Positions 40,832 to 53,876 of a DNA stretch of 64,000 bases are shown piece by piece (within the stretch, counting starts at the first letter, position 1; every line of letters begins with the position of its first letter). The translations under genes were made by a program, and so were the position numbers. The notes below the pieces were generated by a model. That model saw only the letters and a program-made list of their open reading frames with translations. It ran no database searches and was not told the origin of the DNA. The stretch comes from Curtobacterium poinsettiae (lineage in GTDB: Bacteria; Actinomycetota; Actinomycetes; Actinomycetales; Microbacteriaceae): positions 3,038,001-3,102,000 of the forward strand of contig NZ_CP106879.1 of assembly GCF_025677645.1 (NCBI RefSeq). The letters run 5' to 3'.

Positions 40832-40864
40832 GTGCCGTCCCCGTCCCCGCACCACCGAGGTCCC

Positions 40865-42289
40865 ATGTCGTCCGCGCCGTCACGTCCCACGTCCCTGGGG
40901 GCGCAGCTCGCCCGCCGCAAGCCGATCGAGCAGCTGCAGGCCGAAGCCTCCCGTGGTGTGAACGGCGAACCGCTCCGCCGGTCGCTCGGGGTCTGGCAGC
41001 TGACGATGATCAGCGTCGGGGCCACGCTCGGCACCGGCATCCTGGTCGTCCTCGGCACCGCGGTCCCGCTCGCCGGTCCCGCCGTCTGGATCTCGTTCGT
41101 CGTCGCGGGGATCGCCGCACTGCTGTCCGCGCTGTCGTACGCCGAGATGGCGGGCGCCGTCCCGACCTCGGGGTCCAGCTACTCGTACACCTACGCCACG
41201 ATGGGCGAGGGCATCGCATGGATCTGCGGCTGGTGCCTCGTGCTCGAGTACGCCGTCTCGGTGGCCGCGGTCGCCGTGGGTGCCAGCGAGTACGTCGACG
41301 AGACCCTCCGCGTGTTCGGGCTGCACCTGCCCACCGCACTCGCCGCTCCCCCGGTCGACGGCGGCGTGGTCAACCTACCCGCGGCGGTCCTGGTCCTGCT
41401 CGCCACCGCCGTGCTGCTGCCCGGTGCCCGCGAGAGCGCCTGGGTGAACACGGTCATGGTCATCGTCAAGATCGCCCTGCTGGTCTTCTTCGTCGTCGTG
41501 GCGTTCACGGCGTTCCAGGCGCAGAAATTCGAACCGTTGGCCCCGATGGGCGCCGCCGGGGTCACCGCCGCCGCGTCGCGGCTGTTCTTCTCGTACATCG
41601 GCTTCGATGCCGCCTCGACCGCCGGTGAAGAGGCCGAGAACCCCCGCCGTGACCTGCCCCGGGCGATCATCGGCTCGATCGCGCTTATCACGGCGCTGTA
41701 CATCCTCGTCGCGATCGCTGCCGTCGGGGCCCGCTCGTGGACCGCGTTCTCGTCGTCCGAGGCGTCGCTCGTCCGCATCGTCGTCGACGTCACGGGGCAG
41801 CCGCTCGTCGCCCTGGTGTTCTCGATCGGCGCCGTCGTCGCCATCGCCAGCGTCGTGCTCACCGTCCTGTACGGCCAGACCCGCATCCTGCTCACGATGT
41901 CCCGCGACGGCCTGGTACCGAAGGTCTTCGGGCGGGTCTCCCGTCGCACCGGCACCCCGATCGCGAACACGCTCATCATCGGCATCGCCGTGACGATCGT
42001 CGCCGCGCTCGTGCCCCTCGGGGAACTCGCCGACGCCACGAGCATCGGCACCCTCGTCGCATTCGCCCTGGTGAACGTGTCCGTCATCGTGCTCCGCCGC
42101 TCGCAGCCCGACCTGGAGCGCTCGTACCGGGTGCCGCTGTTCCCCGTCGTGCCGATCCTCGGCACCCTGAGCTGCGTGCTGCTCGCGGTGTTCCTCGGCG
42201 CCACCACCTGGATCGCCTTCGGCATCTGGATGGTCGCCGGCGCCCTGCTCTACCTGGCCTACGGCCGCCGCCACAGCACCTTGCGCTGA
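40865..42289 (+). CDS. APC-family amino acid permease
   Basis: 474 residues with about 12 membrane helices. Typical sequences: SVGATLGTGILVVLG in helix 1, AALLSALSYAEMAGAVPTSGSSYSYTY, and FFSYIGFDAASTAGEEAENPRRDLPRAI, the APC consensus of the cationic amino acid transporter branch. I chose ATG at 40865; an alternative start 33 bases upstream would add MPSPSPHHRG. Likely imports or exchanges amino acids across the membrane; substrate not predictable. Confidence 0.92.
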   Translation: MSSAPSRPTSLGAQLARRKPIEQLQAEASRGVNGEPLRRSLGVWQLTMISVGATLGTGILVVLGTAVPLAGPAVWISFVVAGIAALLSALSYAEMAGAVPTSGSSYSYTYATMGEGIAWICGWCLVLEYAVSVAAVAVGASEYVDETLRVFGLHLPTALAAPPVDGGVVNLPAAVLVLLATAVLLPGARESAWVNTVMVIVKIALLVFFVVVAFTAFQAQKFEPLAPMGAAGVTAAASRLFFSYIGFDAASTAGEEAENPRRDLPRAIIGSIALITALYILVAIAAVGARSWTAFSSSEASLVRIVVDVTGQPLVALVFSIGAVVAIASVVLTVLYGQTRILLTMSRDGLVPKVFGRVSRRTGTPIANTLIIGIAVTIVAALVPLGELADATSIGTLVAFALVNVSVIVLRRSQPDLERSYRVPLFPVVPILGTLSCVLLAVFLGATTWIAFGIWMVAGALLYLAYGRRHSTLR

Positions 42290-42310
42290 CGCGCCCGCGG
42301 CTGCACACCG

Positions 42311-42384
42311 CGCCGAGTCTCGGCCAGGCGGACTTTCCACGGCTCACGAAGGCGCGAGAGTGTCTGCTCGGACGAGACTCGGCA
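42311..42384. repeat. Left copy of a ~70-bp palindromic element flanking the AbiEi/DUF559-like gene
   Basis: Begins with the near-palindrome GCCGAGTCTCGGC (42312-42324) and ends with CGAGACTCGGC (42373-42383), which pairs perfectly with the first 11 bases. Between them lie GGCGGAC and GTGTCTGCTC, both with counterparts in the right copy (43422-43492). Confidence 0.75.
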
Positions 42385-42472
42385 CATTCCTCGGGACGAT
42401 CGCGCACCTGCGCTCTCCACAGATCCCGCAGGAGGGCTCACAGCGCAGACCCCGAGTCCGCACACTCGCATC

Positions 42473-43405
42473 ATGCAGCTTCACCGGACACGCCCCGATC
42501 TCCTCCGCGCCGAGCGATCGGATCCATCGCAAGCACGACAACTCCGACGGCTCCATGCCGCTGGGCGAGTCATCCGGCTCCGTGCGGGTGTCTACCTCGA
42601 CAAGCGGGTGTGGGATGCACTCGACACATCGGACAAACACCTCGCCATGGCTTGGGCTCTCGCTCCTGACCTGAGTTCGACCAGCGCGTTCTCCCACGTC
42701 ACGGCTGCACTCATCCACGGCTGGCCGTTGATCGGGCCGGCTCCGGAACGGATCCACGTCGTCGACTGGAAGCTGGTCGGTGTCGAACACCGGGTCGGGC
42801 TCATCCGACACGGCATCGACCCCGCTGGCCTGCGCCTCGGCCCCAGTCGGTTCGACGGCGTCCCCGTGGTCGATGCGCTCGGAACGGCGATGGCCGTCGC
42901 GCGAACGTGCGACCCGGCGGTCGCCGCCGTGGCCATCGACCATGCAGTGCGCATGAAGGCGCTCGACAGGAAAGTGTTCGAGGAGCACCTGCCGCCGCCC
43001 GCATCACGCGGTGGCCGGAGGGCTCGGCTCGTCGCCACTGCGCTCGATCCGGCACACGAGTCTCCCGGTGAGTCCTACTCTTCGATCCGACTCGTGCAAC
43101 TGGGAGTGACCAACATCCAGCCGCAGCATGAGTTCATCACGAACGGGTTCCGCGACCGAGTCGACTTCTGGTTGCCCGACGCCGGAGTCGTCGTCGAGTT
43201 CGATGGCAAGCAGAAGTACGTCGACCGCGAGATGCTCGCAGGTCGCGATCCCGGCGAGGTCCTCTGGCAGGAGAAGCGCCGGGAGGACCGCATCCGTACC
43301 CACCGAGGAGTTCGGTCCGTCATCCGAGTGACATGGTGGCACCTCGAGAGCCTCGACCGGTTCCGTGCGCTGCTCCGATCGCACGGGGTGTCGATCACTC
43401 CGTGA
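42473..43405 (+). CDS. AbiEi-like winged-helix / DUF559-like nuclease-fold protein
   Basis: 310 residues, clearly lower in GC than its neighbours. N-terminus (~20-45): RQLRRLHAAGRVIRLRAGVYLD, as in the AbiEi antitoxin-type winged helix. C-terminus (~200-270): GESYSSIRLVQLGV, RVDFWLPDAG, VVVEFDGKQKYVD, a pattern of Glu, Asp, Glu-x-Asp-x-Lys expected of a PD-(D/E)XK/Vsr-like (DUF559) fold. No toxin gene is adjacent. Similar stand-alone proteins are frequent in Microbacteriaceae; role unproven. It is bracketed by two related palindromic repeats, and it may be a mobile or defence-related cargo. Confidence 0.8.
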   Translation: MQLHRTRPDLLRAERSDPSQARQLRRLHAAGRVIRLRAGVYLDKRVWDALDTSDKHLAMAWALAPDLSSTSAFSHVTAALIHGWPLIGPAPERIHVVDWKLVGVEHRVGLIRHGIDPAGLRLGPSRFDGVPVVDALGTAMAVARTCDPAVAAVAIDHAVRMKALDRKVFEEHLPPPASRGGRRARLVATALDPAHESPGESYSSIRLVQLGVTNIQPQHEFITNGFRDRVDFWLPDAGVVVEFDGKQKYVDREMLAGRDPGEVLWQEKRREDRIRTHRGVRSVIRVTWWHLESLDRFRALLRSHGVSITP

Positions 43406-43421
43406 GCGGCACCGGCGACAG

Positions 43422-43492
43422 TCGAGTCTCGGCTCAACGGACAACTTCGCGCTCCAACGGCCGGCAAAGTGTCCGCTCAGCCGAGTCTCGGC
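43422..43492. repeat. Right copy of the palindromic element flanking the AbiEi/DUF559-like gene
   Basis: Starts CGAGTCTCGGC (43423-43433) and ends GCCGAGTCTCGGC (43480-43492), with CGGAC and GTGTCCGCTC between, matching the left copy in order and spacing. It begins 17 bases after the gene's stop. Confidence 0.75.
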
Positions 43493-43515
43493 GAAAGGCG
43501 CCACCCCGCACACGA

Positions 43516-43549
43516 CGAAGGCCGCCGCCCCGAGGGGCAGCGGCCTTCG
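43516..43549. terminator. Bidirectional terminator beyond rplL
   Basis: About 15-bp stem (CGAAGGCCGCCGCCC with GGGCAGCGGCCTTCG, one mismatch), loop of about four. It lies 19 bases after the rplL stop on the minus strand. Confidence 0.85.
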
Positions 43550-43567
43550 TGACCGGAACGGTCGAGA

Positions 43568-43951
43568 CTACGCGAGCTCGATCGTGGCGCCAGCGGCCTC
43601 GAGGGTCGCCTTCGCCTTGTCGGCGGTCTCCTTGTTCGCACCCTCGAGGATCTTGGCGTCGGCGGTCTCGACGAGCGCCTTGGCCTCACCGAGGCCGAGC
43701 GACGTCAGGCCACGGACCTCCTTGATGACCTGGATCTTCTTGTCACCAGCGGACTTGAGGATGACGTCGAACTCGGTCTTCTCCTCAGCGGCCTCGGCCG
43801 GAGCAGCTGCGCCGGCGGGGGCGGCAGCGGCGACCGGGGCGGCCGCGGTGACCTCGAAGACCTCTTCGAACTTCTTCACGAAGTCCGAGAGCTCGATGAG
43901 CGTGAGCTCCTTGAAGGCCTCGATGAGCTCGTCCTGCGAAAGCTTCGCCAT
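43568..43951 (-). CDS. rplL: 50S ribosomal protein L7/L12
   Basis: 127 residues; stalk protein recruiting translation factors. N-terminal dimerisation domain [28 protein letters not shown], an Ala/Pro hinge (~40-58) and the C-terminal domain [24 protein letters not shown] ... [10 protein letters not shown]. Operon with rplJ (51 bases between). Confidence 0.98.
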
Positions 43952-51925: not shown

Positions 51926-52776
51926 TGCCCGGCCGCACCGACACGACCGAACCGACGACAGGAGCAACCGTGACCAGCACCGACACCGCGACCGGCGAGG
52001 CGGAGGCGACCCGTGCCTCCAGTCCGATGTACCGGCTGACGAACGTCAGCAAGACCTACGAGCAGAAGAACCGGACCGTCACCGCCCTGACGAACGTCCA
52101 CCTGACGATCCCGCAGGGGCAACTCGTGGCCGTCCAGGGGCCGACCGGCGGCGGGAAGTCGACGCTGCTGCAGATGCTCGGAGCACTCGACCGGCCGAGT
52201 GCCGGGTCCATCCACCTCGGTGGCGACCGCGACGTGGCGAAGCTCGGCGACGGCGCACTGACCGACCTGCGGGCGACCGAGATCGGCTTCGTGTTCCAGA
52301 GCTTCAACCTGATCCCGACGCTGACGGCCCTCGAGAACGTCGAGACGGCGTTCGCGGGGTCGCTCGCGAACCGGTCCCGGACCGAGGTCCGCGAGCGCGC
52401 GGTCGCTGCCCTCCGCGAGGTCGGACTCGGCGAGCGGATGGAGCACCTGCCGGCCGAGCTGTCCGGCGGACAGCAGCAGCGCGTGGCGATCGCCCGGGCG
52501 CTGGTGAAGAACCCGAGCGTGCTGCTCGCCGACGAGCCGACGGGTGCGCTCGACGAGTCGACCCGCGACGAGATCATGGCGCTCATCGAGAAGCAGTGGC
52601 GGGAGCGCGGGCTGACCGTCGTCATCGTCACGCACGACTCGTGGGTCGCGAAGCGTGCCGAGCGGCGCCTGCACATCAAGCAGGGGCAGGTGCGCAGGTC
52701 TAGCGGGGCGGGCGCGTTTCGCGCTGCGCGACAGACCACGCGTCCCGCGGCGCGTGGACTGTCCCGCAGCGCGTGA
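51925..52776 (+). CDS. MacB-like ABC transporter ATP-binding protein
   Basis: 283 residues. Walker A GPTGGGKSTLLQML, Q-loop FVFQSFNLIPTLTALENVE, signature LSGGQQQRVAIARALVKNP, Walker B VLLADEPTGALDE and H-loop VTHD fit the LolD/MacB subfamily. The Thr-rich N-terminal 34 residues and a Ser/Arg/Ala-rich C-terminal tail extend beyond the domain. Partner of the upstream permease; probably exports peptides or releases lipoproteins. Confidence 0.94.
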   Translation: MPGRTDTTEPTTGATVTSTDTATGEAEATRASSPMYRLTNVSKTYEQKNRTVTALTNVHLTIPQGQLVAVQGPTGGGKSTLLQMLGALDRPSAGSIHLGGDRDVAKLGDGALTDLRATEIGFVFQSFNLIPTLTALENVETAFAGSLANRSRTEVRERAVAALREVGLGERMEHLPAELSGGQQQRVAIARALVKNPSVLLADEPTGALDESTRDEIMALIEKQWRERGLTVVIVTHDSWVAKRAERRLHIKQGQVRRSSGAGAFRAARQTTRPAARGLSRSA

Positions 52777-52784
52777 CGACGCCG

Positions 52785-53732
52785 CTACCCCGCCACCGGG
52801 TAGTCGCAGTACGCGAACCACGCCGAGTCCGGGGCCCACGGCGGCACGTTGACCGTCCCCTGCCCGCCGTCGAGCGCCACCAGGGTCTCCGGTTGGACCG
52901 CGATCCGTGCGCCGCGGACGAGCGACCCCGGCAGCAGCCGCAGCTCGACGCGGTGGTCCGCCGGGTGGCCCTGCACGCCGGGCTCGTACGACAGGTAGAG
53001 CAGGTGTGCGCCGTCCGGCGACAGGTGCGGGAACCAGTTCACCCGGTCGTCGTTCGTCAGGCGGACGGGGCTGTCGTGCCCGGGCCAGCGCACGGCCAGC
53101 TGCGCGGTGCCCGGGGTGAACCGCTCCGTGTTCCAGAGCAGGATCCCGCCGGCCGGACTGATGGTGCAGCCGTCGTCGGAGTGCTCGTCCCGCGTGACGA
53201 ACGTCGGCTCGCCGGTCTCCGGGTCGACCATCGCGACGTCGGTCGTCCAGACGCCGTCCTCGGACAGCTCCCCCACGATCGCGGCGAGGGCACTGCCGTC
53301 GGGGGCGATGCCGTGCAGGTAGAACTTCCGCTTGGCGGGCAGGGCCGCAGCGACGTCGGTGATCCGGGTCGTGGGGCCGCCCTCGGGCAGCGGGACGCGG
53401 TACAGCTCGCCGTCGCGCGCGCTCACCACGATGGAGCTGCCGGACGGGTCGACCACGTGGTCGTTGTTGATCTCGTCGACGCCGTCCATCGGCACCGGCA
53501 CGAGCGCGGTCTCGTCCAGCACGGTGCCGCTGTCGGCGGACGGCAGTCGCAGCAGCCAGAGGTCGCCGTCGCCGTTGAGCACCAGGGTCTCGGCGTCCAG
53601 GACGTTCGGTGCCTCGACGAGCACCGCGGCCGACTCGAACACGAGCCTCGAGGTGCGGGACTCGACGTCGTACACGTGCACGCGGCTGGTCTGTCCGGGC
53701 AGCAGCTGCCGCCCCCTGGTCTCGTCGCTCAT
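52785..53732 (-). CDS. TolB-like beta-propeller protein
   Basis: 315 residues with no signal peptide, so likely cytoplasmic. Repeated PD40-type blades are visible (e.g. VDPSGSSIVVSARDGELYRVPLP, ISPAGGILLWNTE, LSPDGAHLLYLSYEPG, APDSAWFAYCDYP). ATG at 53732 begins MSDETRGRQLLPGQ. Homologues are often annotated as biopolymer transporter Tol or oligogalacturonate-lyase-like sugar proteins; placement beside a sugar uptake operon favours a carbohydrate-related role, but it is not proven. Confidence 0.75.
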   Translation of the reverse strand: MSDETRGRQLLPGQTSRVHVYDVESRTSRLVFESAAVLVEAPNVLDAETLVLNGDGDLWLLRLPSADSGTVLDETALVPVPMDGVDEINNDHVVDPSGSSIVVSARDGELYRVPLPEGGPTTRITDVAAALPAKRKFYLHGIAPDGSALAAIVGELSEDGVWTTDVAMVDPETGEPTFVTRDEHSDDGCTISPAGGILLWNTERFTPGTAQLAVRWPGHDSPVRLTNDDRVNWFPHLSPDGAHLLYLSYEPGVQGHPADHRVELRLLPGSLVRGARIAVQPETLVALDGGQGTVNVPPWAPDSAWFAYCDYPVAG

Positions 53733-53784: not shown

Positions 53785-53797
53785 TGGGGAACGGCAA

Positions 53798-53859
53798 AAC
53801 ACCGGTGTTCGCGCTGCGCACCGCGTGATGCGGCGGCGTCGAGCACGAACACCGGTGTC
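53798..53859. repeat. Pair of AACACCGGTGTT palindromes in inverted orientation
   Basis: AACACCGGTGTTCG (53798-53811) and its reverse complement CGAACACCGGTGT(C) (53846-53859) flank 34 bases. Each arm contains the palindrome ACACCGGTGT, and the two arms can also pair as a long hairpin. It sits between the last permease stop and the TolB-like gene start. It could be a terminator or twin operator sites. Confidence 0.6.
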
Positions 53860-53876
53860 TTGCGGGAGGGCTCCGC

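Follow-up and report, generated by a model that had tools for sequence, protein, structure and literature searches.

A predicted AbiEi-like/Vsr-type nuclease gene and its bracketing palindromes at a fixed chromosomal slot of Curtobacterium: a candidate REPtron-like partnership

In the 64,000-nucleotide stretch of Curtobacterium poinsettiae DNA analysed here (the window; contig NZ_CP106879.1, positions 3,038,001 to 3,102,000), an intact open reading frame (ORF) of 310 codons at 42473-43405 is bracketed by two palindromic elements belonging to a dispersed family (Table 1). The product is predicted to be an AbiEi-like module fused to a Vsr/I-Bth0305I-type PD-(D/E)XK nuclease, and the gene allele and the element type are swapped jointly between nearly identical chromosomes. 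The gene and its elements very probably constitute one functional unit. With moderate confidence, this unit is interpreted as a REPtron-like partnership, in which a single-copy, fast-evolving nuclease gene is paired with its own dispersed palindromes, an enzyme-driven spread of the latter included.

Bracketing elements and encoded protein

Both elements are near-palindromic, with a 68-bp core carrying CGAGWCTCG at each end. The sequence GCCGAGTCTCGGC is found exactly at 42312-42324 and 43480-43492, and the partner ends, GACGAGACTCGGC at 42371-42383 and GTCGAGTCTCGGC at 43421-43433, carry one or two mismatches. The original prediction had described a gene lying between two ~70-bp elements with a common end palindrome and with inner CGGAC and GTGTC-GCTC blocks in the same order; both elements are present as described, the blocks follow in identical order on the left and the right, and the fixed spacing is significant. 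The spaced pattern CGAGWCTCG-50N-CGAGWCTCG, with up to two mismatches allowed, matches the window twice, each time perfectly, against a shuffle mean of 0.16, and none of 100 shuffles reached two. With 15 matches at two mismatches or fewer versus 13.85 expected, the short palindrome by itself is not significant; chance accounts for the 13-mer alone and is rejected for the spaced pair. A known RNA family was rejected as the identity of the elements, Rfam giving no match at E<=1 across 42200-43600.

Table 1. Features of the locus and its surroundings in window coordinates
Feature	Position	Strand	Basis or detail
Left palindromic element, type A (CGAGTCTCGG..GCGGAC..TGTCTGC..CGAGACTCG)	42312..42383	.	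DNA hairpin fold z -3.84
Gene for 310-aa protein	42473..43405	+	ORF, AlphaFold2 model, fold comparison, family scans
AbiEi-like region, residues 6-192	42488..43048	+	
Vsr/I-Bth0305I-like nuclease domain, residues 197-307	43061..43393	+	
Right palindromic element, type and core length as left	43421..43492	.	DNA hairpin fold z -3.67
Amino-acid permease-like gene, slot border	40832..42289	+	Name read from sequence
rplL (L7/L12), other slot border	43568..43951	-	Name read from sequence
Hairpin behind rplL	43515..43550	.	17-nt arms, 43515-43531 / 43534-43550
Dispersed element of second type (CAAAACACCGGTGTT)	53794..53863	.	Type brackets paralog G000:C1:2973721-2974554

In the encoded protein, the putative active-site residues E200, D231, E242, D244 and K248 are invariant in 100 aligned sequences and are retained in four of the five own-genome paralogs. 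The PD-(D/E)XK-type C-terminus foreseen earlier is borne out by a Vsr-type nuclease fold with conserved acidic residues. The AbiEi likeness, foreseen at the same time, is weak in Pfam (E 0.044, under the cut-off) and better supported by PADLOC (E 3.6e-7) and by fold comparison. AbiEi_4, MTES_1575, DUF559 and AbiEi_1 are the sole Pfam families matched among the 100 aligned members at E<=0.001, with PF18741 matched by two members and PF04480 by one. No HUH tyrosine transposase was recognised, the residues 6-192 and 197-307 being covered by the AbiEi-like and Vsr-type matches; an HUH-type chain is also absent among the structure matches listed, an absence that by itself proves nothing. At the limits used, phage, plasmid and viral collections contained no relatives of the protein, and an origin from such sources was rejected on this ground. 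The gene was also described as low in GC, which is correct relative to the window (66.6% versus 70.9%) but weak as a distinction, with the neighbouring rplL at 66.1%.

Element family and chromosomal slot

Six strong copies of the element occur in the own genome, including the bracketing pair, and all are 68 bp long (ends sought at spacings 35-65); a reversed control pattern found no place in the same genome at the same spacings. A covariance model built from these six copies, R1, which finds weaker places too, has matches at E<=1e-5 in 51 of 66 Curtobacterium genomes, with from 1 to at least 69 rows per genome, both strands counted. Since only three weak hits were found in 49 loci from outside Curtobacterium (two in L176 and one in L207; E 0.0003-0.005), this element type is largely confined to the genus. 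Further types are C (TCACGCGCT..CGACA) and E (CGCGAAAGCGACAG..CTGTCGCTTTCGCG), the latter being 53 bp long in nearly all of the matches listed, with 52-72 permitted. The arms covary in type E (28 double-change cells versus 10.2 shuffled and 3-8 slid; 15 sequences) and in types A/B (123 versus 63.3 shuffled and 22-49 slid; 32 sequences). Because the aligned sequences are the best or listed matches to near-palindromic patterns, part of this symmetry is selected, the inner arms lying outside the patterns.

The gene is located in a slot between the permease-like gene and rplL, and from the hairpin behind rplL onwards (about 43515-43550) the sequence is common to species with differing cassettes. 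As stated in the original prediction, no partner toxin or transposase adjoins the gene; nor does an AbiEii nucleotidyltransferase gene, the neighbours being the permease-like ORF and rplL, and the slot itself contains no defence or partner gene. Searched with the protein, 40 of the 66 genomes gave a homolog at E<=1e-60; the census was completed by an rplL search of the remaining 26 and of 11 whose homolog was only distant, together with seven further stretches. The permease/gene/rplL slot is occupied in 52 genomes, with remnants or contig breaks in eight more. Clade I comprises 29 genomes with the gene on the permease strand (G036 reads frameshifted near the 3' end), and clade II comprises 23 genomes with an inverted relative of ~42% identity or less. 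The slot is partial, decayed or cut by a contig end in G060, G020, G040, G021 and G059, the gene is absent from it in G039, G055, G057, G002, G042 and G043, and contigs end beside rplL in G056 (homolog on another contig), G011 and G026.

Of 30 homologous loci, 28 carry R1 hits to the left and to the right of the gene, and no hit of the 107 at E<=0.05 falls outside the two flanks; the two remaining loci are L088, with one side only, and L096, with none, which belongs to the inverted clade and carries another element type. In clade II (21 loci), type E-like elements stand on both sides in 17, one of them a variant, and L121, L122, L127 and L130 show another type or none that is clear, by eye. 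Decayed or partial gene copies in L104 (G060), L113 (G020) and L115 (G040) are accompanied by elements or element remnants. Among the gene-less genomes, G039 retains one CGAGTCTCG-type element and G055 retains pieces of the other type. By eye, no such element is seen in G002, G042 or G043, where the neighbours differ, and in G057 (L129) the permease-rplL gap holds an unrelated GGTGCGAGGTTG..CAACCTCGCACC palindrome resembling one beside the own-genome paralog L006. The expectation that strains lacking the gene keep an element is therefore true of G039 and, in pieces, of G055, and fails in the other four.

Exchange of alleles and element types

The joint exchange is seen between G000 and G007, whose identity per 60-column block is 96-100% outside the cassette and drops to 11-78% inside it, with the proteins at 54%. 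The G000 cassette is of type A and the G007 cassette of type C; one cassette is common to G000 and G015, the other to G007 and G008. Within clade I (28 of 29 genomes; G014 was left out, as rplL is missing on its contig), the similarity of the elements, measured on the rplL-side flank only, tracks protein identity (partial Spearman 0.42, permutation p 0.0005) and not the identity of the flanking genes (0.04, p 0.26). The corresponding values in clade II (19 of 23 genomes) are 0.58 (p 0.0005) and 0.20 (p 0.047). Of the earlier suggestion of a mobile cassette with its own repeats, the part that survives is the exchange of alleles together with their elements; a freely jumping cassette is not supported, the gene occupying one slot in 52 of 66 genomes.

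Paralogs and other genera

The arrangement extends to relatives of the gene. Among the matches listed there are 80 family loci, from which L134-L157 (24 loci, the slot and its close relatives) and two with flanks that are too short were left out. The up- and downstream flanks were compared by a two-flank score with a threshold of >=40, and 34 of the 54 family loci outside the slot reached it. The same threshold was reached by none of 212 pairs displaced within a locus, by 0.25% of 2794 pairs drawn across genera and, around other genes, by two of 170 pairs (Fisher p 8e-24 versus family loci). Self-complementarity of >=40 was found in 38.2% of family flanks versus 4.1% of control stretches. The matching flank sequence differs from genus to genus, with matches in Jiangella (3/3), Naasia (4/5), Cryobacterium (3/4), Curtobacterium (4/6), Cellulomonas (3/6), Rhodococcus (3/8), Prescottella (2/2) and Georgenia (2/3), as well as at single loci of Tomitella, Agromyces, Tessaracoccus and others; the single loci of Nocardia, Microbacterium, Compostimonas and Actinotalea lack them. 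Together with the R1 bracketing at the slot, these matches bear out the predicted association of the repeats with such genes.

A second slot, beside a biotin carboxyl carrier-like sequence, also shows nuclease alleles and palindromes swapped (L003, L305, L308, L310, L311 and eight of L316-L335), the paralog being found in 8 of the 20 stretches examined. Five genomes carry alleles there with five different flank pairs, scoring 76 in G000, 108 in G058, 60 in G014, 83 in G012 and 48 in G059; the own-genome paralog L003 is clearly bracketed (76). The element at 53794 is of the CACCGGTG type by eye in G000, G015, G007, G008, G003, G063 and G019. At the same site, again by eye, G041 carries type B, G046 a type C-like element, G012 and G044 the GCACAAC type and G018 none of these; G037, G005 and G050 are not alignable there. 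The idea that the type at this site matches the second slot fits G000, G007 and, judged by eye, G012, and was rejected because it fails in G015.

Dispersed copies

Dispersed copies tend to follow the local element type, with exceptions. In the nine genomes with a type C slot, the half-sites of type C outside the slot number 4, 7, 2, 4, 8, 8, 1, 2 and 3 (mean 4.33), versus a mean of 0.44 in 57 others (p 5e-8), with slots assigned by eye and half-sites counted by hand. The 57 include G021 with 6 (slot partly missing, with a type C rplL side), G028 with 5, and G009 and G033 with 3 each. For type E, the mean is 4.67 across 18 genomes of clade II and 0.97 across 29 of clade I (p 3e-5), a comparison that retains the slot copies, at least two, in G016 and G029 and leaves out five clade II genomes with other flanks, all of them at 0; in clade I, G036 has 9 and G046 has 5. 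In the cleanest contrast, type C half-sites outside the slot number 1 in G000 and 0 in G015 versus 2 in G007, 4 in G008 and 4 in G003, and R1 rows, slot included, number 12 and 17 versus 5, 5 and 1. G000 and G015 have the element of L019; G007, G008, G003 and G041 lack it at flanks of 84-98% identity, and G046 is not alignable there. When collinear positions were guessed between G000 and G008, one of ten sites was found.

The typed copies are located at gene 3' ends. A total of 49 dispersed copies were placed, namely the best model hit of 26 genomes, four own-genome copies, 15 of type E and four of type C, with gene direction taken from GC at codon position 3 and not from annotation. Convergent genes flank 31 of these, tandem genes 16 and divergent genes none, with two not callable; the 320 control gaps from 40 regions comprise 75 convergent, 179 tandem and 66 divergent (p 3e-9).

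Three further arrangements were observed. A weak type C-like element (R1 E 0.0015) lies at 52705-52789, with similar palindromes in the same place in G008 and G003. In L066 (G013), end palindromes recur at 21-bp steps around an element at 1467-1618, and at G014:C167:42368-42510 two elements overlap with a 59-bp period and one end in common.

Discussion

In the proposed partnership, the enzyme may spread the elements. The AbiEi-like module would bind the inner inverted blocks GCGGACA..TGTCCGC, a role suggested because AbiEi and Rv2827c are published as inverted-repeat binders, and the Vsr-type domain would nick or cut the element, with the end palindromes as the probable site. Elements could then be copied into hairpin-rich 3' intergenic DNA when the hairpin is repaired or replicated, and the same process could help divergent cassettes to replace each other at the slot.

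Several observations weigh against such a partnership. The correlation of type and allele at the slot is uninformative about an effect in trans because linked inheritance alone produces it, which leaves the dispersed copies as the sole test; furthermore, the genomes are related and the p-values are therefore too small. G058 has at least 69 R1 rows (both strands), and its typed copy L040 is of type A, although the gene in its slot is inverted, belongs to clade II and has type E-like elements beside it; another paralog as the source of these copies was not supported, the four other G058 paralog loci being without CGAGNCTCG. The one empty element site compared shows no readable target-site duplication, most palindromes within 20-30 kb of the slot are common to close species, and the element of L256 is conserved in G000. 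G015 keeps the second-type element at 53794 although its own second slot differs in type. Of the 54 family loci, 20 score below 40, including five of eight in Rhodococcus. The own-genome L006 is marginal (34), L004, L005 and L007 are not bracketed by this measure (22, 18 and 24), nor are four of the nine other paralog loci of G058, G014, G012 and G059, and the focal pair itself scores only 30.

The alternatives account for parts of these data. In a homing-type allele drive, which is rather unlikely as the whole explanation, the enzyme would cut a recipient slot of another type or without a cassette, and the cassette would be copied in by recombination through the permease gene and rplL, with the dispersed copies as by-products; the drive alone leaves those copies, dozens in some genomes, and their type-following counts unexplained, and ordinary recombination with diversifying selection could swap alleles as well. 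A regulatory network, with an AbiEi-like repressor, palindromes as operators and a secondary nuclease domain, agrees with the element upstream of the gene and with the binding of AbiEi and Rv2827c to inverted repeats at their own promoters, as given in passages of PMC7319586. However, an equal element stands downstream, the putative active-site residues are invariant, and no typed dispersed copy of 47 lies between divergent genes versus 66 of 320 control gaps, so that this explanation appears improbable.

A conflict over invading DNA, in which the palindromes would be self marks or sensors for a defence nuclease and the allele turnover an arms race, would suit the AbiEi similarity, the Vsr-type fold and the turnover at fixed slots; it is considered quite improbable, as the slot contains neither a partner nor a defence gene, and the lack of phage, plasmid or viral relatives at the limits used neither helps nor excludes it. 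Finally, terminator-like hairpins might be spread by another agent, with the gene merely lying between two of them. The 31 of 47 typed copies between convergent genes (75 of 320 control gaps) favour such hairpins, and the position of copies at gene 3' ends agrees with the random-terminator case named as a refutation in the original prediction; yet the gene link is strong, matching flanks recur across many genera in this family and are rare at other genes, and the type is linked to the allele, which makes an incidental position of the gene very improbable.

The REPtron-like partnership can be compared with known systems. As described in passages of PMC8266576 and PMC3733652, REPtrons consist of a mostly single-copy RAYT/TnpA_REP gene flanked by palindromes dispersed in intergenic DNA; the repetitive extragenic palindromic (REP) elements lie mainly between convergent and tandem genes, and enzyme and element co-evolve. 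Here too, palindromes of a dispersed family stand on either side of the gene. In contrast to REPtrons, the enzyme is an AbiEi-like and Vsr-type nuclease instead of an HUH transposase, the consensus element ends are CGAGWCTCG or CGCGAAAGCGACAG and not GTAG, the core lengths are set at 53 or 68 bp, and the alleles are swapped at fixed slots. The best reading is that the system works like a REPtron in layout and habits but is not a member, since enzyme and tag differ. The N-terminal similarity relates the protein to AbiEi and Rv2827c of the type IV toxin-antitoxin system AbiE, and AbiEi proteins bind inverted repeats according to the same passages of PMC7319586; unlike AbiE, no AbiEii toxin gene adjoins, a nuclease domain is added, and elements occur on both sides of the gene and genome-wide. 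The Vsr-type fold with its conserved acidic residues is shared with Vsr and I-Bth0305I, but the nuclease is fused to an AbiEi-like module, and the gene is an ordinary intergenic one, the sequence giving no sign that it lies in an intron or intein. The few matches to PF18741 and PF04480 recall MTES_1575/DUF559-type restriction endonucleases; MTES_1575, a Vsr-type enzyme in the passages of PMC3710099, is itself a large protein in which HEPN and further domains are fused, and palindromes go unmentioned in those passages. Titles, abstract openings or passages of the open-licence literature gave no link of such nucleases with palindromic elements.

A broader proposal is offered tentatively, as one about as apt to fail as to hold: slot-fixed AbiEi-Vsr nucleases of many actinobacterial genera may mobilise or maintain cognate palindromes, a separate one for each allele, as an unrelated second solution to the REP/RAYT lifestyle, with alleles displacing one another like homing genes and palindrome sets turning over with the nuclease. 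If this is true, a nuclease of another fold would be paired with palindromes, the arrangement would have arisen more than once, and an uncharacterised protein family would gain a job. Meanwhile, chromosomes that are almost identical yet differ in allele and elements provide natural experiments that are already at hand.
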